DNA of 24,010 nucleotides from a virus: positions 1 through 24,010 of the IMG/VR virus record IMGVR_UViG_3300042868_002141; one strand, given 5' to 3'. Of the stretch, positions 4,392-18,135 are shown one piece after another. A program made the translations under genes and the position numbers. The notes under the pieces are model-generated. The model worked only from the letters and a program-made list of their open reading frames with translations, was not told the origin of the DNA and searched no databases. The stretch's first letter is position 1, and the number at the start of each line of letters is the position of its first letter.

Positions 4392-4847
4392 ATGGCAAAG
4401 CATAAGTACATAGAAACCCCTGAAAAGATGTGGGAACTATTTGAGCAATATAAGACATACACTAAAAGCAAACCTATTTTAGTTCAAGACTTTGTAGGAA
4501 AAGATGGTGATGAAGTAAACCGAAAGAAAGAAAGACCCTTAACCATTGATGGTTTTGAATGTTGGTGTTACGATAACGACATTATAAGCGATTTAAGCCA
4601 ATATTTTGCAAATACCGAACAAAGATACAGCGAATATCAAACTATCTGTTCACGCATACGTAAAGCAGTAAGGACAGACCAAATAGAAGGAGGCATGAGT
4701 GGCATTTACAATTCATCCATAACTCAACGGTTAAACGGTTTAACTGATAAAACACAAGTTGAGAATAGTGGAGAGGTAAAAATAATAACAGCAAATTTTG
4801 GAAATAGAACTATACACACCTCACAAGAACCAGGAGAAGATACATAA
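4392..4847 (+). CDS. terS: Terminase small subunit
   Basis: The 151-aa protein carries the pattern of the P22 gp3-like small terminase family: an N-terminal MWELFEQYK helix, a TIDGFECWC segment, then YQTICSRIRKAVRTDQIEGG and SGIYNSSITQRLNGL. Small terminases form a ring that recognises the packaging site and hands DNA to the large subunit. Its 3' end overlaps the large-subunit gene by 50 bases in another frame, which supports both the partnership and coupled translation. The start ATG follows a short A-rich gap after the methyltransferase. Confidence 0.88.
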   Translation: MAKHKYIETPEKMWELFEQYKTYTKSKPILVQDFVGKDGDEVNRKKERPLTIDGFECWCYDNDIISDLSQYFANTEQRYSEYQTICSRIRKAVRTDQIEGGMSGIYNSSITQRLNGLTDKTQVENSGEVKIITANFGNRTIHTSQEPGEDT

Positions 4848-6003
4848 CTCTATTAATAACGAGAAGTATAAGTATTATGTTCTTGATATTGGTAGGCAGT
4901 TTGGCAAGTCTATGCTTGCACAAAACCAAGCAGCATATTGGGGATTTAATGATGCAGGCTGTGTAATAGGATGGGTAAGTCCTATTTATAGGCAAGCAAA
5001 GAAAGTATTTACAGAACTAACGCAAGCATTTTCTGGGCATAACCTATTTAAGATTAATAATTCAGACTTAGAGATTAAGTTCCCTAATGGATCATTGATG
5101 AAATTCTTTTCATCTGAAAGGTACGACAATATAAGGGGTGAAACATTTGATTATCTAATATGTGATGAGTTTGCTTTTATGGATGCTTTGGCATGGTCTG
5201 AAGTATTAAGGGCAACCGTACTTGTAAAAGGCAAAAAGGTTTTACTTATATCAACACCAAAGGGCAAAAATCATTTCTTTAACTTGTTTAGTCTTGATGG
5301 TTCAAACGCTCAATACAAGTCATTTAAAATGACATCTTATGATAACCCTATAATAAACCCAACTGAAATAGATGATGCAAGATTAACACTTCCTGACCAT
5401 GTATTTAGGCAAGAATATTTAGCTGAGTTTATTGATGGTGGCTATTCGTTATTTGCAGCAGCAAAGTTTACAGCTTTAGGACAATCAACCTCTCGTAATT
5501 ATGCAGGTGTCGATTTGGGTAGGGCAGATGATTATACAGTTATATCTGTATTTAATCAAAATGGAGAGCAGGTTTATATTGAAAGATGGAGGCATGATAG
5601 CTGGACTAATATAGTAGCAAAATTAATAAAGGTTATAAATATTTATTCGGCTTATACCCTAATTGAAAGTAACAGTATAGGTGATGCTATTTATGAGCAG
5701 GTTCGAAACGGATGCTTAAACAAATCAAAAATACAACCATTTTTTACAACATCTAAAAGCAAACAAGATATTATAGAACAGTTAGTTGTTGCTTGCCAAA
5801 ATGAAGATATTAAATTTAATGATAATGAATTTCTTAAAAAAGAGTTAGATATATTTGGGTATGAGTACAATCCTAAATCTAAATCAGTTCGTTACTCTGC
5901 ACCTTCAGGCTTTCATGATGATGCTGTAATGGCAACAGCTATATCATATCATGCACTTAAAACATTAAGGGGCGGTGGCAAGTATGTTGTACTAAATGTG
6001 TAG
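4798..6003 (+). CDS. terL: Terminase large subunit (packaging ATPase/nuclease)
   Basis: The 401-aa protein shows both terminase domains. An adenine-contacting TPHKNQEKIH segment (7-16) precedes the Walker A-like GRQFGKS (32-38); Walker B is LICDE (120-124) with E124 the likely catalytic Glu; the coupling-type motif LLISTPKGK follows (about 150-158). The RNase H-like nuclease begins GVDLGRADDYT (D239 first metal ligand) and ends in HDDAVMA (D374/D375). The start is TTG: no ATG occurs between it and the Walker A, and translation from here restores the N-terminal adenine motif. It overlaps the small subunit by 50 bases. It powers DNA translocation into the prohead and cuts the concatemer. Confidence 0.94.
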   Translation: MEIELYTPHKNQEKIHNSINNEKYKYYVLDIGRQFGKSMLAQNQAAYWGFNDAGCVIGWVSPIYRQAKKVFTELTQAFSGHNLFKINNSDLEIKFPNGSLMKFFSSERYDNIRGETFDYLICDEFAFMDALAWSEVLRATVLVKGKKVLLISTPKGKNHFFNLFSLDGSNAQYKSFKMTSYDNPIINPTEIDDARLTLPDHVFRQEYLAEFIDGGYSLFAAAKFTALGQSTSRNYAGVDLGRADDYTVISVFNQNGEQVYIERWRHDSWTNIVAKLIKVINIYSAYTLIESNSIGDAIYEQVRNGCLNKSKIQPFFTTSKSKQDIIEQLVVACQNEDIKFNDNEFLKKELDIFGYEYNPKSKSVRYSAPSGFHDDAVMATAISYHALKTLRGGGKYVVLNV

Positions 6004-6033: not shown

Positions 6034-6645
6034 ATGATTACCAACTACGAAAACCTAACGATTAAACAATTTCTAAACTGCAAGTTAATTTCAGACTTAG
6101 AAACCGACCCTATTCAACGTAAAGTAAAGATGCTTGCTGAGATTAGTGGTAAAAGTGTGGATGAGATTGAGTCAATGCCTATCGAAAAAATGATAAAGCA
6201 TTTGAAAGACTTGGAGAATATCGAAAACATTGCAACCCTATCAAAGGTGAAGATGAAGTTTAAGGTAGGTAGTAAAAGGTTTGAATGTATTTGGAAGCCT
6301 CAGGAATTAACAGCGGCTCAATATGTGGATGTAACACACTTTTGCAAAGATCAGGATGCGATAGTTTCAAACATTCATAACATATTAGCAGCTATTTGTG
6401 TAGAGGTTAATTGGTTTAAGAGGACTAAGTACGATGGGGTGAAGCATAAGGAGGTGGCTAATTTGTTTTTAAACAAAATGAAAATAAGTCAAGCCTACCC
6501 GATAATGGTTTTTTTTTGCAAGTTCTATCAGGAATTATCAAACAGTATCCTAACTTGTTTGGAGAAGGAAGTTCTGGAGGTGAAGGAGTTAGCGGAGAAA
6601 CATTTGAAAAGCGATGGGGATGGATTGCAGTCATTAACAATTTAA
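6034..6645 (+). CDS. Tail assembly chaperone-like protein, unshifted product (gpG-like)
   Basis: This 203-aa, mostly helical protein starts with an ATG after a 30-base gap. It has a central beta-like segment (KMKFKVGSKRFECIW, about 74-88) and a helical core (ELTAAQYVDVTHFC). The identification rests on architecture: the frame contains a T9 slippery run at codons 159-161, after which a second open frame continues to 6770. That gives a longer alternative product, exactly the arrangement of G/GT tail assembly chaperones, which coat the tape measure protein before tube assembly. It lies 4.6 kb before the tape measure gene rather than directly beside it, so the call is probable, not certain. Confidence 0.6.
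   Translation: MITNYENLTIKQFLNCKLISDLETDPIQRKVKMLAEISGKSVDEIESMPIEKMIKHLKDLENIENIATLSKVKMKFKVGSKRFECIWKPQELTAAQYVDVTHFCKDQDAIVSNIHNILAAICVEVNWFKRTKYDGVKHKEVANLFLNKMKISQAYPIMVFFCKFYQELSNSILTCLEKEVLEVKELAEKHLKSDGDGLQSLTI
6509..6517 (+). promoter_or_regulatory. Probable programmed -1 frameshift slippery site (T9)
   Basis: In the frame starting at 6034 the run reads GTT TTT TTT TGC, so T TTT TTT at 6510-6516 satisfies the X XXY YYZ rule with two Phe codons slipping back one base. After the slip, reading resumes at 6516 (TTG CAA) in the frame that stays open to 6770. Unshifted translation stops at 6645 (203 aa); shifted translation gives about 245 aa. No strong downstream stem-loop or pseudoknot is obvious by eye. 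A homopolymer sequencing error is the main alternative. Confidence 0.65.
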
Positions 6646-6770
6646 GTAATAACGATAGAAGCAGATGGGCGTACTATGAGGATATGAATGTAACTGAGTT
6701 TTTAAACACAGTAGTATTTTATAAAGAAAAAAGCGAAGCGGAGCAAAAATGGCAACAGGCAAATCAATAG
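6516..6770 (+). CDS. -1 frame extension of the tail assembly chaperone (gpT-like part)
   Basis: This open frame has no good start of its own (the first triplet is TTG directly inside the T9 run) and is best read as the C-terminal 84 residues of a frameshift fusion with the gene at 6034. The segment has a Gly/Ser-rich linker followed by a compact conserved-looking region, ETFEKRWGWIAVINNL and then VTEFLNTVVFYKEKSEAEQ, typical of the C-terminal part of phage G-T-like proteins. It ends 22 bases inside the next gene. Independent translation is unlikely but cannot be excluded. Confidence 0.6.
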   Translation: MQVLSGIIKQYPNLFGEGSSGGEGVSGETFEKRWGWIAVINNLSNNDRSRWAYYEDMNVTEFLNTVVFYKEKSEAEQKWQQANQ

Positions 6771-7363
6771 GCGAAAAGTACGGTAAGAGTACTGGTGATT
6801 ATGCAACGGCAAGTAAAAACGCTGCTGAGCAAGTTGTATTGCAATGGAGTAATGAGAGTATTGATATTATGCGAGATGTTATAATTGCAAACGCTCGGAC
6901 TGGGCAAGCCTCAACATTAGCACGTTCAATGAGTCCTAAAATTACTGAGGTATCGGATGGATTTAATCTTCGAATAGTATCGGATGTAAATTATAGTGAC
7001 TTTGTTGATAAGGGTGTAAGAGGTTTAAGAAAAAATAAAACTAAAAACAGTCCTTATAAATTTAAGTCAATAGGGGTAAGTCCTAAAATGGTAGAGTCGT
7101 TTAAAGAGTACATATCGAGAACTGGATTAAAAAGTTTAAAGAATAAAAGTGGCAAGCCTAAAAAGCTAATCATTAAGGATAAAAAGAAACAAGCCGACCT
7201 CATTACACAAGCAGCTACTCAGTTAGCAGTAGCCACAAAGATAGGAGGTATTAAACCAATGAATTTTAAAGCTGCGGCATTAACAAAAAGCAGACTAAAC
7301 AAATTAAGTACTGAGGTTGCAAGTGCATTAAGTGAAGTGATTAAAATTAATTTAAAGAAATAA
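6749..7363 (+). CDS. HK97 gp10-like tail completion / head-tail joining protein
   Basis: This basic 204-aa protein has an N-terminal helix (AAEQVVLQWSNESIDIMRDVI), then a Ser/Arg segment (STLARSMSPKI). Strands with SDVNYSDFVDKGVRG (about 88-102) follow, resembling the YAxyvEfGt motif of HK97 gp10-type proteins, which sit at the head-tail interface. The second half is Lys-rich. It overlaps the frameshifted product by 22 bases and lies among tail genes. The family assignment rests on this motif and size. Confidence 0.5.
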   Translation: MATGKSIGEKYGKSTGDYATASKNAAEQVVLQWSNESIDIMRDVIIANARTGQASTLARSMSPKITEVSDGFNLRIVSDVNYSDFVDKGVRGLRKNKTKNSPYKFKSIGVSPKMVESFKEYISRTGLKSLKNKSGKPKKLIIKDKKKQADLITQAATQLAVATKIGGIKPMNFKAAALTKSRLNKLSTEVASALSEVIKINLKK

Positions 7364-8504: not shown

Positions 8505-11275
8505 TAGAAAATGAAATCAAAATACATCAGTTAATTGATACAGGTGTAGTTAACTATTATGTAGACCATAGCTTAGACTTAACCCAAAGTGAGTCTATTG
8601 TTATTACTAAGTCCATAATTGACATACGCAACTTTGAAAGCAGAAAGAGTGACTATACTAAAACAATTACACTTCCTGCAACTTCAAACAATAATAAGGT
8701 ATTCAATAATATTTTTGAGTTAAACAGGTCCACACGAAATACTACTCAGCAAAACTTTTACCCTGATTTTAATCCAAACTTAAAAGCAGATGTAAGCATT
8801 TATAAAAATGGCATAGTTCAAATGAGTGGCTATATGCAACTCGTACAAATTAATGTAGTAGATGAGCAACCTGTAAGTTATGAAGTAATAGTGATTGGTA
8901 GGTTTGCAAACTTAATTCAAGACTTAGGAGATAGGTTATTAACTGATTTGGATTTAAGTGAGTACGACCATGTGTATGATATTACAGCGGTTGAAGATAG
9001 TTGGACCGCACCAACTGGATTAGGGTACTACTATCCGTTAATTAATGTAGGTGATGTAGCAAATGGTATAACATTTTCACTTTTAAACTTTAAGCCTGCA
9101 ACATATCTAAAAACTTTAATAGATAGGATATTTATCGAAGCAGGTTATAGGTACGCTTCAAACTTTTTTGACTCAGCATTTTTCAAAACTTTGGTTATGC
9201 CTTTTGGCAATCCTGCTTTTAGAATTTCAGAAGCTGAGGTAACAGATAGAACATTTATAGCCGAGCAAACACCAGTATTAGTTCCACTTGATGGGCAATC
9301 AGTAAATAATAGAGCGACAGTTGGCTTTGATATTATAGTTCAAGATAGCAACCCCGCAGGATTTAACACTTCAACTAATTCTTTTGATGTACAAAATGGA
9401 GGTCAGTATTCTTTTATTGCAAGACTAAATGCAGACATAACAAATAATGGTGCAACAACCGAAACTTTATCACTTTTTAGAATAGGGTTTTATAAAAACG
9501 GAACAGCGGTTTATAATACTTTTTTCCCTCAAGTAACATTAGCAGCATCTGCAACAACTTTTAGGAGGTTTGATGTAATAAGCGGCAACATTAGTTGCCT
9601 TCCTGGTGATGTAATTACTGTTGAATATTATCAAAGCAATGGTTTATTAGATTGGACAATTGAGTTTGATAGTGATAGTTATTTTACTTGCATTCCAAAT
9701 GCTTTTATTACCTCAGGCTCGACTATTAACTTAAGTAAAACATTACCTTTAACCTTTAAGCAAACCGACTTATTTATTAGTCTTGTTCGTATGTTCAACT
9801 TGTATGTTGAAGTAGACAAGTACGATGATAGGAAGTTGATAATAGAACCCAAAGAGCAGTTTTACCAATTAACAAAAGTAGACTTGACTCCTTACGTTGA
9901 TGTAAGCGTTGATACTGTTATTAAACCGATTGGTGCATTAGAGGCCAAGACTTATAACTATAAGTGGAAAGAAGATAAAGACCTTTACAACTCACGTTAC
10001 TTAGCTAACTATAAATATCCATACGGTACAAGGCGGTTTGATGTTGAGAACCAATTTAACAAAGCAGTAAAAGATATTACTTGCGATATATCCCCTACTC
10101 CATTAGTTCAATTATTGGATAAAATAGTAAGCAACATTACTTTAGTTGATACTCAAGGTGCAGTTGTTCAAGGCGGTTGGAATCCTCGCATACTTATTAA
10201 CGGTGGATTGATGCCTACAAGTGTAGGATTTACAATTGATGGCACACCTTATACTAATTATCCGTATGCAGGGCATTTAGATGACCCTTTTAATCCTACT
10301 TTTGATTTGAATTGGGGCATACCTGCTGAGATATATTTTAATATTAGTGAATATCCTAATAATAATCTATTTAATAAGTACCACAAACAAGGCGTTTTAG
10401 AAATATCGGACAAAGATAGTAAGATAGTTGAGTTTAAAATGAAGCTAAATGAAGTGCAATTAAACGCTTTATCATTCAGACTGCTATATTATATTGACCA
10501 AAACTACTACAGGCTTTACAATGTAGAGTATGATATCAATAGCAATGAAACTACAACCGTTCAGTTTTTACAGTTAACCGACATTCCAGTATTTGTAGGC
10601 GTTTCAAGTCCTATCAATGGAGGCGGTTTTAACAATGGTGGAGGCACTGACTTACCTTTATATGGTGATAGTATATTTAGAGATGGCAACGGCAAACCAT
10701 TGCAACAAAACAGCGTATCATTTGGAACGGATAACAACATAGGCTCAAACAATGCAATAGTAAACTCACGTTCAAATAACGTGGTAAGCGATTATGCAAA
10801 TGTTTTAAACGGTCAATCCAACGTAGTACAAACAAATGATGTTACTTTAATCAATACCTCAGACTATGTTACAACATTGGATGGCGAGGTTGCAATAAAT
10901 AATATTCAATATCCATTTACAAAAGTTATTACACTAAATCAAGCACAACTTGATGATTTAGACACAATAACTATTGAAATAGTACCTACGCAAACCGATT
11001 ACATAGTTCAATATGTAAGTGGCTATGCAAAGAATAATTATGGTATTGACAGATACAAAAACCATAATATAATAATTCACCAAAATACAACCAACACTCA
11101 TATTGCCGAACTTAAAGGAATTGCATACGCTAATGAAACTTGTATACAAAATGCACAAGACTTAGCTCAGCCTTTATTTACTAATTATGGTTTATATTTA
11201 AAGGCATCAGGCAATTTGGCAGGCGGTGATGGAACTATAACTTTTACTATTCAATACAGATTAATTAAAATATAA
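8501..11275 (+). CDS. Large tail hub / tail-associated structural protein (924 aa)
   Basis: The largest gene in the window. Its N-terminus contains FESRKSDYTKTITLPAT (about residues 43-59) followed by a NNKVFNNIFELN stretch, a signature of large tail or baseplate proteins in Bacteroidota phages; integration-type domains of a tail hub are plausible in the first 500 residues. Near residues 695-720 there is a Gly/Asn-rich linker. Residues about 735-800 form an Asn-rich repetitive stretch resembling a beta-roll, followed by a beta-rich C-terminal domain. The gene ends one base into the tape measure start (TAATG). Probably located at the tail tip and involved in host contact; the exact role is not determined. 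Confidence 0.55.
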   Translation: MIENEIKIHQLIDTGVVNYYVDHSLDLTQSESIVITKSIIDIRNFESRKSDYTKTITLPATSNNNKVFNNIFELNRSTRNTTQQNFYPDFNPNLKADVSIYKNGIVQMSGYMQLVQINVVDEQPVSYEVIVIGRFANLIQDLGDRLLTDLDLSEYDHVYDITAVEDSWTAPTGLGYYYPLINVGDVANGITFSLLNFKPATYLKTLIDRIFIEAGYRYASNFFDSAFFKTLVMPFGNPAFRISEAEVTDRTFIAEQTPVLVPLDGQSVNNRATVGFDIIVQDSNPAGFNTSTNSFDVQNGGQYSFIARLNADITNNGATTETLSLFRIGFYKNGTAVYNTFFPQVTLAASATTFRRFDVISGNISCLPGDVITVEYYQSNGLLDWTIEFDSDSYFTCIPNAFITSGSTINLSKTLPLTFKQTDLFISLVRMFNLYVEVDKYDDRKLIIEPKEQFYQLTKVDLTPYVDVSVDTVIKPIGALEAKTYNYKWKEDKDLYNSRYLANYKYPYGTRRFDVENQFNKAVKDITCDISPTPLVQLLDKIVSNITLVDTQGAVVQGGWNPRILINGGLMPTSVGFTIDGTPYTNYPYAGHLDDPFNPTFDLNWGIPAEIYFNISEYPNNNLFNKYHKQGVLEISDKDSKIVEFKMKLNEVQLNALSFRLLYYIDQNYYRLYNVEYDINSNETTTVQFLQLTDIPVFVGVSSPINGGGFNNGGGTDLPLYGDSIFRDGNGKPLQQNSVSFGTDNNIGSNNAIVNSRSNNVVSDYANVLNGQSNVVQTNDVTLINTSDYVTTLDGEVAINNIQYPFTKVITLNQAQLDDLDTITIEIVPTQTDYIVQYVSGYAKNNYGIDRYKNHNIIIHQNTTNTHIAELKGIAYANETCIQNAQDLAQPLFTNYGLYLKASGNLAGGDGTITFTIQYRLIKI

Positions 11276-12960
11276 TGGCAACTACAAACGAGAATATAGT
11301 TTTAGGTGTAGACATCAAGCTGAAAGGCGGTGAAAGCGTAAAATCTTTAAAGGGTGAATTAAGGGACTTAAAAAATCAATTAGGACAACTTGACCCTGCA
11401 AGCAAAGCATTCGATGAGGCTGCTAAAAGGGCTGGACATTTACAAGAAAAGATTAGAGGAGTTAATGACTCAATACAGAACGCTGACCCTGAAAAGAAGT
11501 TTGCTCCGTTTGCAAGAACTATCGCAGGTTTGGCGGGTGGATTTGCAGCCGTTCAGGGTGCTATGGCTTTGTTTGGATCTGAGAGTGCAGACTTGCAAAA
11601 GGCTTTAGTAAAAGTACAAGGGGCTATGGCTTTGAGTAATGGATTAAATTCGCTATTAGAGTTCAAAAATGATTTTAAGGAACTTGGCGGAATTATCAAA
11701 ACAAACGTAACTAAAGCGTTTTCAACTTTAAGGGGTGCAATCGCAGCGACTGGTATTGGTTTGTTGGTTGTTGCAGTTGGTTTGTTGGTAGCTAATTGGG
11801 AAAAGGTAGTTGCTGTGCTTGATAGTGTATTTCCTGGTTTTAAAAAGCTAACTACATCAGTGGCGGATAATACCGAAGCATTAGAAAAAAACATTGAAAA
11901 AAATAAAGAGTCGCAAAATTTTTATAAAAAAATTATTGATGCAAGGTTAGCAGGAATAAAAGATGTAAGAGATAAAGAAACCGCAGAGTTAAAAGAAAGG
12001 CAAAGAAGAGAAACGCAAGAAGCACAAAGAGAGTATTCCACAAGATCAGACTTTAATAGTTTAATGTCGGCTTTAGAGCAACAGCATTTAACTGAGTTGG
12101 GTAATTTATCTAAAAAGTTTCAAGACGAAGATGATGCTAAGAAAAAAGAAAAAAACGAAAAAGATAAACAAGAAGCTGAAAGATTAAATCAACAAGCTAA
12201 AAAGTTAGAAGAGGATAGGATAGCACAAGTAAAATTAAATGCAGCAGCAGAAACTGCTATTAGTGCAGCAAAGGTTGAAAAAATAAAACAAGACTTTGAA
12301 GACATAAAAACACAAACCGATGCCAGTGTATCTGAGGTTGAAACTTTAAGAAATAACGCTTTAAAAGCTGTAGATGATACAACTAGAACATACGAAACAA
12401 GACAAGAAATATTAGATGCTTATTTAAATGCTGGTCTTATTACACAAAAAGAATATGCAGATGCTGAGGTAAAAATAGAACAAGAAAAGATGAACGCTAA
12501 AATGCAAATATTACAAGCATTTAGTCAAGTGTTAATAAACTCTTCGGAATTAGCAGGAAAAGAAACGGCAGCGGGCAAAGCGTTAGCAGTTGCATCAACT
12601 ACAATAGATACTTATGTTGCTGCATTTAGAGCATACAAAGAAGGATTTAAGGTAGATCCTACAGGAACGTTCTCAATTATATCAGCAGCAGCAGCAACTC
12701 TTGCAGGTGTTGCAGCGGTTAAAAATATTTTAAAAGTAAAAGTACCAGGAGGCGGTGGCGGTGGAACATTACCAACACCAGTTGGCGGTGGAGCACCAAA
12801 CGTACCTCAGCAAGTAAATGGAACTCGATTAAGTCAAGAGTCGGCATTGCTTACACGTGATGTTAATCAAGGCAATACTAAGGTTTATGTATTAGAGTCT
12901 GATATTAGCGATTCACAAAGGCGTATAGATGGCATAAAACAAAAAGCAACAATCGGATAA
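11275..12960 (+). CDS. Tail tape measure protein
   Basis: The 561-aa protein has the classic layout of a tape measure. An N-terminal coiled coil (KSLKGELRDLKNQLGQL, about 23-39) precedes an Ala/Gly-rich hydrophobic region (about 80-120) and a strong transmembrane-like segment (GIGLLVVAVGLLVANW, about 160-175). A long charged coiled coil follows (about 195-410), then a second hydrophobic region near 460-485. The Gly-rich stretch near 490-510 leads to a conserved-looking tail TKVYVLESDISDSQRRIDGI. Tape measures set tail length and are ejected with DNA; about 1.5 angstrom per residue gives a tail of roughly 80 nm, compatible with a siphovirus. The gene is short but intact. Confidence 0.82.
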   Translation: MATTNENIVLGVDIKLKGGESVKSLKGELRDLKNQLGQLDPASKAFDEAAKRAGHLQEKIRGVNDSIQNADPEKKFAPFARTIAGLAGGFAAVQGAMALFGSESADLQKALVKVQGAMALSNGLNSLLEFKNDFKELGGIIKTNVTKAFSTLRGAIAATGIGLLVVAVGLLVANWEKVVAVLDSVFPGFKKLTTSVADNTEALEKNIEKNKESQNFYKKIIDARLAGIKDVRDKETAELKERQRRETQEAQREYSTRSDFNSLMSALEQQHLTELGNLSKKFQDEDDAKKKEKNEKDKQEAERLNQQAKKLEEDRIAQVKLNAAAETAISAAKVEKIKQDFEDIKTQTDASVSEVETLRNNALKAVDDTTRTYETRQEILDAYLNAGLITQKEYADAEVKIEQEKMNAKMQILQAFSQVLINSSELAGKETAAGKALAVASTTIDTYVAAFRAYKEGFKVDPTGTFSIISAAAATLAGVAAVKNILKVKVPGGGGGGTLPTPVGGGAPNVPQQVNGTRLSQESALLTRDVNQGNTKVYVLESDISDSQRRIDGIKQKATIG

Positions 12961-15150: not shown

Positions 15151-15669
15151 ATGGCGTGTGCAATAGTATCAGGTTACGCACTTGACTGCAAAGATGCAGT
15201 CGGTGGAATTAAGAATATCTACATTACAGAATTAGCAAACATTACCGCAGTAGCACAAAACGCAAGTGGTTATGTTACAGCAATCACAAAGGTAGGAGGT
15301 AAGAAATACTTTACCTACGCATTAGAGCCAAGAGGTGTAAATAGCACTTCACAGACTATTAATGCAGACCCTACAATTGGTACTGTATCAGTTGAGCAAA
15401 ACATCAATGCTGCATTTGTGAAAATGAAGTTTGAGACTCAAAACATTTTACAAAACGTAATACAAAATAGAGTTTCTGTTTTAGTTGAAATGAAAACAGG
15501 ACAGTATTTTTTATTCGGGAAAGAATTTGGAATGCAAGTTAACGGAGGCACAGGTACTTCAGGACAAGCAATGAGTGAGTTTAATGGTTATGCCATTACT
15601 TTTCAAGGCGAAGAAAAACTATTTGCAAACGAAGTTGACCCTACAATAATAACAGCTTTATTGGTTTAA
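15151..15669 (+). CDS. Probable major tail tube-like structural protein (172 aa)
   Basis: A compact beta-rich protein starting MACAIVSGYALDCKDAVGGI, then NIYITELANI, a beginning I associate with a conserved structural protein of Bacteroidota phages. Its size and strand pattern are compatible with a tail tube subunit: alternating hydrophobic strands, a central YALEPRG segment, and GYAITFQGEEK near the end. It is flanked by two hairpins, so it may be expressed at its own level. Position beside the capsid gene would also allow a head decoration or other head role, so the tail tube assignment is moderate. Confidence 0.5.
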   Translation: MACAIVSGYALDCKDAVGGIKNIYITELANITAVAQNASGYVTAITKVGGKKYFTYALEPRGVNSTSQTINADPTIGTVSVEQNINAAFVKMKFETQNILQNVIQNRVSVLVEMKTGQYFLFGKEFGMQVNGGTGTSGQAMSEFNGYAITFQGEEKLFANEVDPTIITALLV

Positions 15670-15693
15670 GTTGGATTGGTTTTATATTAAAAG

Positions 15694-15721
15694 CCCTTGC
15701 ATAACGTGAGGGTTTTTTTTT
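15694..15721 (+). terminator. Intrinsic (rho-independent) terminator
   Basis: CCCTTGC (15694-15700) pairs with GTGAGGG (15706-15712), allowing two G-T pairs, around a five-base loop. A run of nine T (15713-15721) follows, and AAAAG lies upstream, so the stem can extend by A-T pairing. It stands about 25 bases after the stop of the tail-tube-like gene and is the clearest terminator in the window. Genes beyond it need read-through or a new promoter. Confidence 0.85.
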
Positions 15722-15751
15722 GCAATAAAAGTTTTTTTTATATTATTAAAT

Positions 15752-16174
15752 ATGTTGAACATTATCAAAGACACGATTAATACAATAGTTGTTACCTTAA
15801 CAGAGAATGCAACTACTTTTAATCCTATCTATTTATTTAAGTTCACTAATCAGCAATCAAATGTTGACTATTACTTTATAAGCACAGATACATCGAGCCA
15901 CATTGAGCGTTACAATAAGTTTTTACTAACTGAAAAAACAAACGCTAATACTTTAACTGGTGAAGTGACATTAGGCAATGAGGGGTTTTATAATTATGTA
16001 GTATACCAAACTAACTTACCTAACACTTCAGGGCTTACAAGTGCCTCAGAAGCGGTTGCAAACATAGTTAAGAGCGTAGAAGTTGGATTAGTTTGGGTTG
16101 TTCCTTCGGCGGTTGTCAATGTAACATATGAGCCTTCAAGTAATACATCAATAGTTTATCAATATCAAAATTAA
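15752..16174 (+). CDS. Beta-rich phage structural protein, unknown role (140 aa)
   Basis: I recognise this only as a type of small protein common in Bacteroidota phages. It opens with hydrophobic strands (NTIVVTLTENATTFNPIYLF), contains SSHIERYNKFLL (about 48-59), and has GNEGFYNYVVYQTN (about 75-88) near the end of a probable single beta-sandwich. A C-terminal VEVGLVWVVPSA strand and a flexible tail follow. It is the first gene after the terminator and overlaps the portal start by one base (TAATG). A head, neck or tail accessory role is likely from position only. Confidence 0.5.
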   Translation: MLNIIKDTINTIVVTLTENATTFNPIYLFKFTNQQSNVDYYFISTDTSSHIERYNKFLLTEKTNANTLTGEVTLGNEGFYNYVVYQTNLPNTSGLTSASEAVANIVKSVEVGLVWVVPSAVVNVTYEPSSNTSIVYQYQN

Positions 16175-18135
16175 TGTATAAAAATAACGTAATATCAATA
16201 GGCTTTAGCAACGATAAAGTACCCGAGTTTCAGGAAGTAAGAGGCAAGGATTGGGTATATTATGGCGAAACTAATAACTATCCTCAGTATCTTGTATTGC
16301 TATTCAACAGAAGTGCAAAACATAACGCTATAATAACAAGTAAGCAACTATACATTGCAGGTCAGGGATGGGTATTTAATGCCGATGGAATGAGTGGCGA
16401 AGATACGATTGCATTGCGTTCATTTATTGATAATCCAAATCCATACGAAACACTACAAGACCTTTTAACAAAAACGGTTTTAGATGTTGAGTTGTTTGGC
16501 GGTTTCTATTTTAAAGTAACCCAAAAGAAAGGCAAGAAAGGGCATTATATTTCGCACGTTGATTATGCTAAAATAAGAAGTAATGAGGATAATAGTTTAT
16601 TCTATTATTCAAACTATTGGTTAAATAAAAACGGAGAGCCGAATACCAACATTAAAGAGGATGAGTATACTGTTTATCCTGCGTATGATGCTGAGAAACC
16701 TGCAAGCGAAAGTATCTACTATTATAAAATGTATCGCCCAAATTTAAACACGTATACACTACCTGATTATATTGGTGCGGTTCCTGCTATTATTACAGAT
16801 TGCGAGATTGCAAACTTTCACAGAGCCGAAATACAAAATAGTTTTAAAGGTTCTAAAATGATAATCTTTAAAAACGGCATACCTTCAGACGATGAGATTA
16901 ACGCTACTGAAAGAAAATTAAAAAACAAATTTAACCCAACAGATGCAGCGGGTTCATTGGTAGTTGACTTTGTAGACGATCCGATTAGAGTTCCTGAAAT
17001 ATTGGATTTAAGTGCTGGCGATTTTGCCGATAAGTACAACGCTTTAAACGATACCATACAGCAAGAGATATTTGTTGGACATAAGGTAACTTCACCTATG
17101 TTATTTGGTGTTCGTGTAGAGGGTCAATTGGGTGGCAGGAGTGAAATGGTAGATGCTTATAACATATTCCAAAACACTTATGTTGACCCACGCCAACAAG
17201 TTCAAGAAAAAGTTTACAATTTATTTTCACCTATTAAGGGTAAGTTAAAGATTAAACAATTAGAGCCTATTATGCCATCGTTTAGCGAATCGACATTAAG
17301 TCAAATATTGACTAAGGATGAGATGAGAAGCATTATCGGTAGAGAGGCAATTGAAACAAGTGTTGCATCAGGATTGGTTGATGAAATAAATTCATTAAGT
17401 CCTATGTTAGCTACTAAGGTAATAAACAGCTTAACTCAAAACGAAGTTCGTGCAATAGTTAATCAGCCACCAGTTAATGGAGGTGATGCAGTTACAGATA
17501 CCGCACCTGCAAATTTTAGTTCGTGTAAACATTTTGCAGCAAATGATGATTTGGATTTTGAAGTGTTTTCAAAGTATGGTGAAAGCGTAGATAACTATGT
17601 TGAAGTTAAGCATAAGAAATTTATGTTTTCTTATCAAGACTTTGCACTTACTAAATTAGATGAGGCAATTTTAGACATCATTAAAAAGACTCCAAACATT
17701 ACCAAAGAGGGTATTGGCAAAGTTTTAAAGATTGACAAAACAAAAGTATTAAACTCCTTAGAGAATTTAGTTGCCGATGGATTAGTTGAAGATTCAGCAA
17801 AAGGAATTACGGCAACCCCTGAGGGAGTACAAAAAAAAATACCGAGTTTAGAAAGTTTAGTAATTCGTTACAAGTATAATTTAAGACCTGGAGCACCTGC
17901 ATTAGTAGATGGCGGTGAGAGTAGAGATTTTTGCAAAGCAATGATGGCAAACCCACGCTACTACACACGTGAAGATATACAAATGATTGGTGATGACTTA
18001 GGGGCGTTATACGGAATAGATAACTATAATGCTTTTACAAGGCGTGGCGGTTGGTATCATGACCCGAATACAGATACAAACCTACCTTATTGCAGGCATA
18101 TTTGGGAACAAAGTTTAGTAAAGAAAATTAAATAA
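16174..18135 (+). CDS. Portal protein with C-terminal winged-helix-like and CRH modules
   Basis: Residues about 1-410 are a portal: YYGETNNYPQYLVLLFNRSA near the start, a stem/wing region with LDVELFGGFYFKV, and the crown-proximal region DLSAGDFADKYNALNDTIQQ, then KVTSPMLFGVRVEGQLGG. This dodecameric ring is the DNA entry channel at the head vertex. At 653 aa it is longer than many portals. About 490-555 looks like a winged helix (LDEAILDIIKKTPNITKEGI, then the recognition-like helix DKTKVLNSLENLVADGLVE). About 560-650 is a module with ESRDFCKAM, RRGGWYHDP and YCRHIW, seen in other Bacteroidota phage head proteins and reminiscent of MuF-type C-termini. It overlaps neighbours by one base on each side. 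Confidence 0.85.
   Translation: MYKNNVISIGFSNDKVPEFQEVRGKDWVYYGETNNYPQYLVLLFNRSAKHNAIITSKQLYIAGQGWVFNADGMSGEDTIALRSFIDNPNPYETLQDLLTKTVLDVELFGGFYFKVTQKKGKKGHYISHVDYAKIRSNEDNSLFYYSNYWLNKNGEPNTNIKEDEYTVYPAYDAEKPASESIYYYKMYRPNLNTYTLPDYIGAVPAIITDCEIANFHRAEIQNSFKGSKMIIFKNGIPSDDEINATERKLKNKFNPTDAAGSLVVDFVDDPIRVPEILDLSAGDFADKYNALNDTIQQEIFVGHKVTSPMLFGVRVEGQLGGRSEMVDAYNIFQNTYVDPRQQVQEKVYNLFSPIKGKLKIKQLEPIMPSFSESTLSQILTKDEMRSIIGREAIETSVASGLVDEINSLSPMLATKVINSLTQNEVRAIVNQPPVNGGDAVTDTAPANFSSCKHFAANDDLDFEVFSKYGESVDNYVEVKHKKFMFSYQDFALTKLDEAILDIIKKTPNITKEGIGKVLKIDKTKVLNSLENLVADGLVEDSAKGITATPEGVQKKIPSLESLVIRYKYNLRPGAPALVDGGESRDFCKAMMANPRYYTREDIQMIGDDLGALYGIDNYNAFTRRGGWYHDPNTDTNLPYCRHIWEQSLVKKIK

Follow-up and report, generated by a model that had tools for sequence, protein, structure and literature searches.

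A run of nine T (T9) is strictly conserved in a phage gene that lies directly downstream of the terminase large subunit gene (terL) and whose 0 and -1 frames are both under selection behind the run. We propose that this one gene is decoded in two frames. The unshifted transcript would give a 203-aa protein, and slippage of RNA polymerase on the run, adding one U (or losing two), would give a 245-aa protein with its last 84 residues from the -1 frame. The two proteins would share about 161 residues and act as a tail-assembly-chaperone pair similar to G/GT; the extra helical domain of the long form might serve to bring in a further protein of the tail. As a whole, this explanation seems to us to have a slightly better than even chance of being correct.

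The gene was found in the virus record IMGVR_UViG_3300042868_002141, of which positions 1 to 24,010 were analysed (the window). Its 0-frame ORF (6034..6645, + strand, 203 aa) reads ATG GTT TTT TTT TGC at the T9 (6509..6517, + strand), with T TTT TTT (6510-6516) in the slippery phase. Behind a stop at 6459-6461, the -1 frame runs open from 6462 through 6770, and a single -1 step results in a fusion of 245 aa. The extension (6516..6770, + strand) adds 84 codons after VFF. Close to the junction, ATG and GTG starts are absent from the -1 frame; the only candidates are two TTG codons, one within the run (6516) and one at 6555. A preliminary description of the window had reported the slippery phase, the open -1 frame without a sensible start and products of 203 and about 245 residues, and the sequence bears out all three. 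This T9 is the only one within a gene of the window, and a contig with 98% identity likewise carries exactly nine T.

A set of 219 loci (L002, L005-L222) was assembled from three scans of viral sequences with terminase proteins as queries, a scan with the fused protein, and a genome scan. Some of these loci come from the same contig and overlap. When profiles of the N-terminal and C-terminal parts were run on the stop-to-stop frames of all 219, both parts were detected in 196 loci, and in 195 of these the C-terminal part was in the -1 frame behind exactly nine T. The exception (L140:1591-2290) had a +1 relation and no run, an internal deletion having taken out the junction; it is either a contig error or a decayed copy. 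After removal of duplicates there were 116 distinct contexts; clustering of the proteins gave 32 groups at an identity of 70% and 20 at 50%. T9 was present at the site in all of 39 representative loci (273 kb in total) and only once elsewhere in them, which is far beyond chance. Where the end was seen, the frames stayed open past the first T for 98-209 nt (0 frame), 241-298 nt (-1 frame) and only 8-66 nt (+1 frame). The motifs Y..LFG and WGW were conserved in the extension (38 sequences). One locus came from a Chitinophagaceae MAG, so Bacteroidota hosts would be in line with the data for the virus group that bears the T9.

This conservation bears on two other explanations. Homopolymers are error-prone on some sequencing platforms, and a single window could not exclude a sequencing or assembly error, or a decayed gene. 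The identical T9 in 116 distinct contexts and in two isolate genomes, together with purifying selection on both frames, already refutes this explanation, to which we give a negligible probability. Poly-T is slippery for DNA polymerase too, and replication slippage that alters the run in the DNA could turn the long form on and off as phase variation; with nine T in 116 of 116 contexts and no genome with 8, 10 or 11, we regard this as very improbable.

The preliminary description had held that continuous, unshifted homologues would refute a frameshift. There is one such homologue, in a divergent contig (L012, IMGVR_UViG_3300032237_000157; also fetched as L088 and L182), where the gene after terL encodes 224 aa with both parts in one frame and has no T9. 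This looks like a natural in-frame fusion in a lineage without the switch. It supports the unity of the N-terminal and C-terminal parts and leaves the selection on both frames in other lineages intact. At another locus (L015), an inserted gene, similar by eye to an MT-A70-type methyltransferase, separates terL from an intact T9 gene.

Behind the run, the two frames overlap in a doubly coding stretch (6518..6645, + strand, in the window). For 45 disjoint pairs of relatives, we compared the four-fold degenerate sites of the fused frame. They differed at 5.0% inside the overlap versus 27.5% outside, and divergence was lower inside in 43 of the 45 pairs. In the 0 frame these sites fall on second codon positions, which means that the tail of that frame is kept as well; this tail is open, and under constraint, in all relatives with a complete end. 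Downstream of the T9, then, both frames are under purifying selection as judged from this divergence, and for that reason the 203-aa and 245-aa products are both very probably real. The alignment of homologues that had been suggested for both frames thus turned out in favour of two coding frames. The C-terminal part appears to be made as a fusion, separate initiation being unlikely because 10 of the 39 representatives lack start codons of every type in the -1 frame as far as 60 nt beyond the first T. Re-initiation yielding a separate -1 protein was rejected on the same ground, many relatives having no start there.

The remaining question is which machine slips. Ribosomal slippage requires only seven T. 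In the classical -1 ribosomal mechanism, two Phe-tRNAs would slip on U UUU UUU of a uniform mRNA, and a fixed share of ribosomes would make the long form, as for lambda G/GT. All representatives have the T TTT TTT heptamer in phase, such sites are classically used by phage tail chaperones, and certain phage ribosomal shifts need no stimulator (PMC5009743). A transcriptional site, for its part, is expected to be a homopolymer of about nine A or T at the frame junction, conserved at the nucleotide level, and this too was found, in two codon registers.

The run occurs as GTT/CTT TTT TTT Txx (register 2) and as GGT/TAT/ACT TTT TTT TTx (register 3). Codon 0 was Val or Leu (xTT) in 29 of 29 register-2 representatives and Gly, Thr or Tyr (xxT) in 10 of 10 register-3 representatives. 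The register has changed about 3 times on the terminase tree and 3 times on the protein tree with the junction masked, and at every change a T was gained at one edge of the run and lost at the other. Both edges therefore move together, and the length stays nine. Hybrids with eight T (for example, GGT TTT TTT TGC) or ten T (for example, GTT TTT TTT TTG) would fit both the heptamer and residues found in other lineages, yet they were never found in the related loci. Because these hybrids seem allowed and are absent, the target of selection seems to be the nine-T stretch itself, at the level of DNA or RNA, and not its codons.

Selection for a run of nine is what polymerase slippage predicts. We therefore favour slippage of RNA polymerase adding one U over ribosomal frameshifting alone, and infer that the slip is mainly transcriptional; we think this probable, by a reading of sequence conservation. 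The ribosomal mechanism leaves unexplained both the two further T, kept on either side of a sufficient heptamer, and the paired movement of the two edges without a run of 8 or 10. Nor was a stimulatory structure found: RNA folding on either side of the T9 showed no enrichment over shuffles in the 39 loci, in a pseudoknot-free folding model, in agreement with the earlier remark that no downstream structure is evident. On this balance we judge ribosomal frameshifting alone to be possible, though rather unlikely.

Some points speak against the polymerase. The register changes are only about three independent events, and each extra T is under some amino-acid constraint in one frame. Every relative retains an intact T TTT TTT, a sequence on which ribosomes slip well too. 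Separately, a pile-up of +1-frame stops right after the T9, which would hint at selection against transcripts that lose a U, was looked for and not found. RNA polymerase and the ribosome might also both contribute substantially, with a T9 tuned for the sum of the two. The run suits both machines, and dual-mechanism sites may well exist according to a review (PMC5009743); as the data do not require such a combination, we consider it improbable.

The length of the run agrees with what is known of RNA polymerase slippage. Programmed transcriptional realignment has been described for T runs longer than 8 and A runs longer than 7 (PMC3711429). In mxiE, whose site is T9, the fusion is made by an extra nucleotide inserted in the U run, and dnaX has A9 (PMC1088944; PMC6260861 for the mxiE T9). 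Slippage by the E. coli enzyme is undetectable below 7 T and occurs to some extent already at T7 and T8 (PMC6260861), so nine is no hard threshold. Full-text literature searches, with most subscription papers outside their scope, returned none on transcriptional slippage at a tail chaperone gene.

The closest precedents for the mechanism that we favour are bacterial. Shigella flexneri mxiE has overlapping ORFs and a T9 on the sense strand, where one inserted nucleotide joins the frames into a longer product, as we propose for the phage gene. mxiE differs in being a bacterial regulator gene in which slippage was shown by experiment, whereas slippage in the phage tail gene is inferred. In Thermus thermophilus dnaX, a homopolymer of nine (A9) likewise serves programmed polymerase slippage and gives two products with a common N-terminal part; unlike the T9 gene, it is a cellular gene with poly-A, and its slippage results in a shorter product.

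The preliminary description had called the site a programmed -1 ribosomal frameshift in a tail-chaperone-like gene. The programmed expression of two frames is strongly supported, with the conserved site, the dual-coding constraint, the synteny, a weak fold match to the HK97 chaperone and the T9 of isolate phages on its side. The word "ribosomal" is less secure: the ribosome needs seven T, yet there are exactly nine in every lineage despite the moved codon register, and ribosomal slippage is probably the lesser mechanism. For the time being we would speak of a programmed frame switch that is probably due to transcriptional slippage.

The gene set of the window is siphovirus-like, with a terminase, a tape measure protein, an XkdF-like protease and a weak portal match. 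terL (4798..6003, + strand; phrog_2, 1.3e-46; Pfam Terminase_6N, 2e-16) is the upstream neighbour of the T9 gene in nearly all relatives. The downstream neighbour (6749..7363, + strand) may encode a neck or tail-completion protein (weak phrog_29822 match, E 0.038). The tape measure gene (11275..12960, + strand; phrog_3336, phrog_1538 and phrog_9483, E 1e-11 to 6e-9) is the fourth gene downstream of the T9 gene.

Frame switching in tail chaperones is a textbook case of ribosomal recoding, and the slip heptamer of lambda is GGGAAAG. As in lambda G/GT and HK97-type phages, the T9 gene would make a short product and a frame-switched long one with a common N-terminal part, the switch is in the -1 direction, and the surrounding tail genes precede the tape measure gene, which here is at some distance. 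A weak fold match to the HK97 chaperone (2ob9) is a further resemblance. The -1 extension and the selection on both frames in 195 loci are consistent with this G/GT arrangement. The T9 gene differs from G/GT in having a T9 instead of a short heptamer. Unlike lambda and HK97-type genes, members of its family are doubly coding over some 100-200 nt and have a conserved 0-frame tail, the gene directly follows terL, and it has no sequence family match.

Tail assembly chaperones diverge fast in sequence. No convincing Pfam, PHROG or PDB-sequence relative was found for the fused or the 0-frame protein; Pfam gave no family in 16 members, and PHROGs gave scattered weak matches only (a curated family would be helpful, not essential). 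The 203-aa form was modelled by AF2 with a pLDDT of 89 (38 sequences); in the model, the 0-frame tail belongs to a long helix at the C-terminus. The extension model was helical and less sure (pLDDT 71), the same domain being part of a single frame in L012. Foldseek matched many uncharacterised phage proteins and no significant PDB chain. When PDB chains were re-aligned, the HK97 tail assembly chaperone 2ob9 came first, with a Z of only 3.4 over 61 residues (a weak match), and the extension alone had no PDB match above Z 2.9. From its architecture, its gene order and the weak HK97 fold match, a G/GT-like tail-assembly-chaperone role is likely.

Alternatively, the frame switch would be real and the protein some other head-tail or tail factor. 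The gene adjoins terL and not the tape measure gene, and neither the family searches nor the weak 2ob9 match is convincing. Nevertheless, a shared N-terminal part with a frame-switched C-terminal part is the hallmark of tail chaperones, the best re-aligned PDB chain is a chaperone, and the gene is located between terL and tape measure as in the isolate phage P12024S; we find this alternative doubtful.

The T9 gene also has relatives in cultured phages, which surfaced through the fold search only, as tblastn with four fused proteins against phage isolates gave no match. Among the Foldseek matches was a 175-aa protein of Nonlabens phage P12024S, of a length that fits gp38. By hhalign, gp38 is a homologue of the T9 gene product (probability 96%, E 4e-9), about 11% identical in the profile alignment. 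In P12024S, gp38 comes after terL and before a phrog_29822 member, for which phrog_5 (tail completion or Neck1) is a second match; a probable tape measure gene follows downstream, and the order is similar to that of the window. gp38 has exactly nine T, and its -1 extension runs into gp39 (L223:23136-23830). The T9 is also present in Nonlabens phage P12024L (P12024L_40/41, L225:2501-3195). In both phages the two annotated hypothetical genes are most likely one T9 frame-switched gene. These isolates thus resemble the window in a homologous gene after terL with exactly nine T and a -1 extension, and differ in the low profile identity and in the annotation as two separate genes. Flavobacterium phage 6H, a weak fold match, has no T9 at its gene, and P12002L and P2559Y have other gene orders.

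A broader reading, which we rate at about even chances, is that in a phage lineage across Bacteroidota the balance between the short and the long tail-chaperone form is determined by RNA polymerase slipping at the invariant T9, and not by the ribosome. Transcription would then have taken over the part of the lambda G/GT switch, and the length of the run would be linked to the RNA:DNA hybrid that the host polymerase forms. If the switch is transcriptional, transcription and translation can each serve to fix the proportion of the short to the long form, for which dnaX is a known case, and prediction programs that rely on ribosomal slippery sites would get the mechanism wrong. With its strict length of nine in two codon registers, the run also amounts to an experiment of nature in which selection on nucleotides can be told apart from selection on codons. 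The sister gene in the cultured phages P12024S and P12024L makes the mechanism testable, and gp38 and gp39 merit re-annotation as one frame-switched gene.

Two other homopolymer sites were noted in the window. The portal-like gene (16174-18135, 653 aa, weak Phage_portal match) has a winged HTH domain (HTH_24, residues 493-539) and a further C-terminal region. Inside this gene an A9 (17831-17839) is just 3′ of the winged-helix region; a slip there would yield truncated forms, as stops follow after 16 codons in the -1 frame and after 6 in the +1 frame. The intergenic stretch 15691-15739, after a gene at 15151-15669 with a phrog_19091 match, consists of CCCTTGCATAACGTGAGGG followed by T9 and soon by T8, and resembles an intrinsic terminator.
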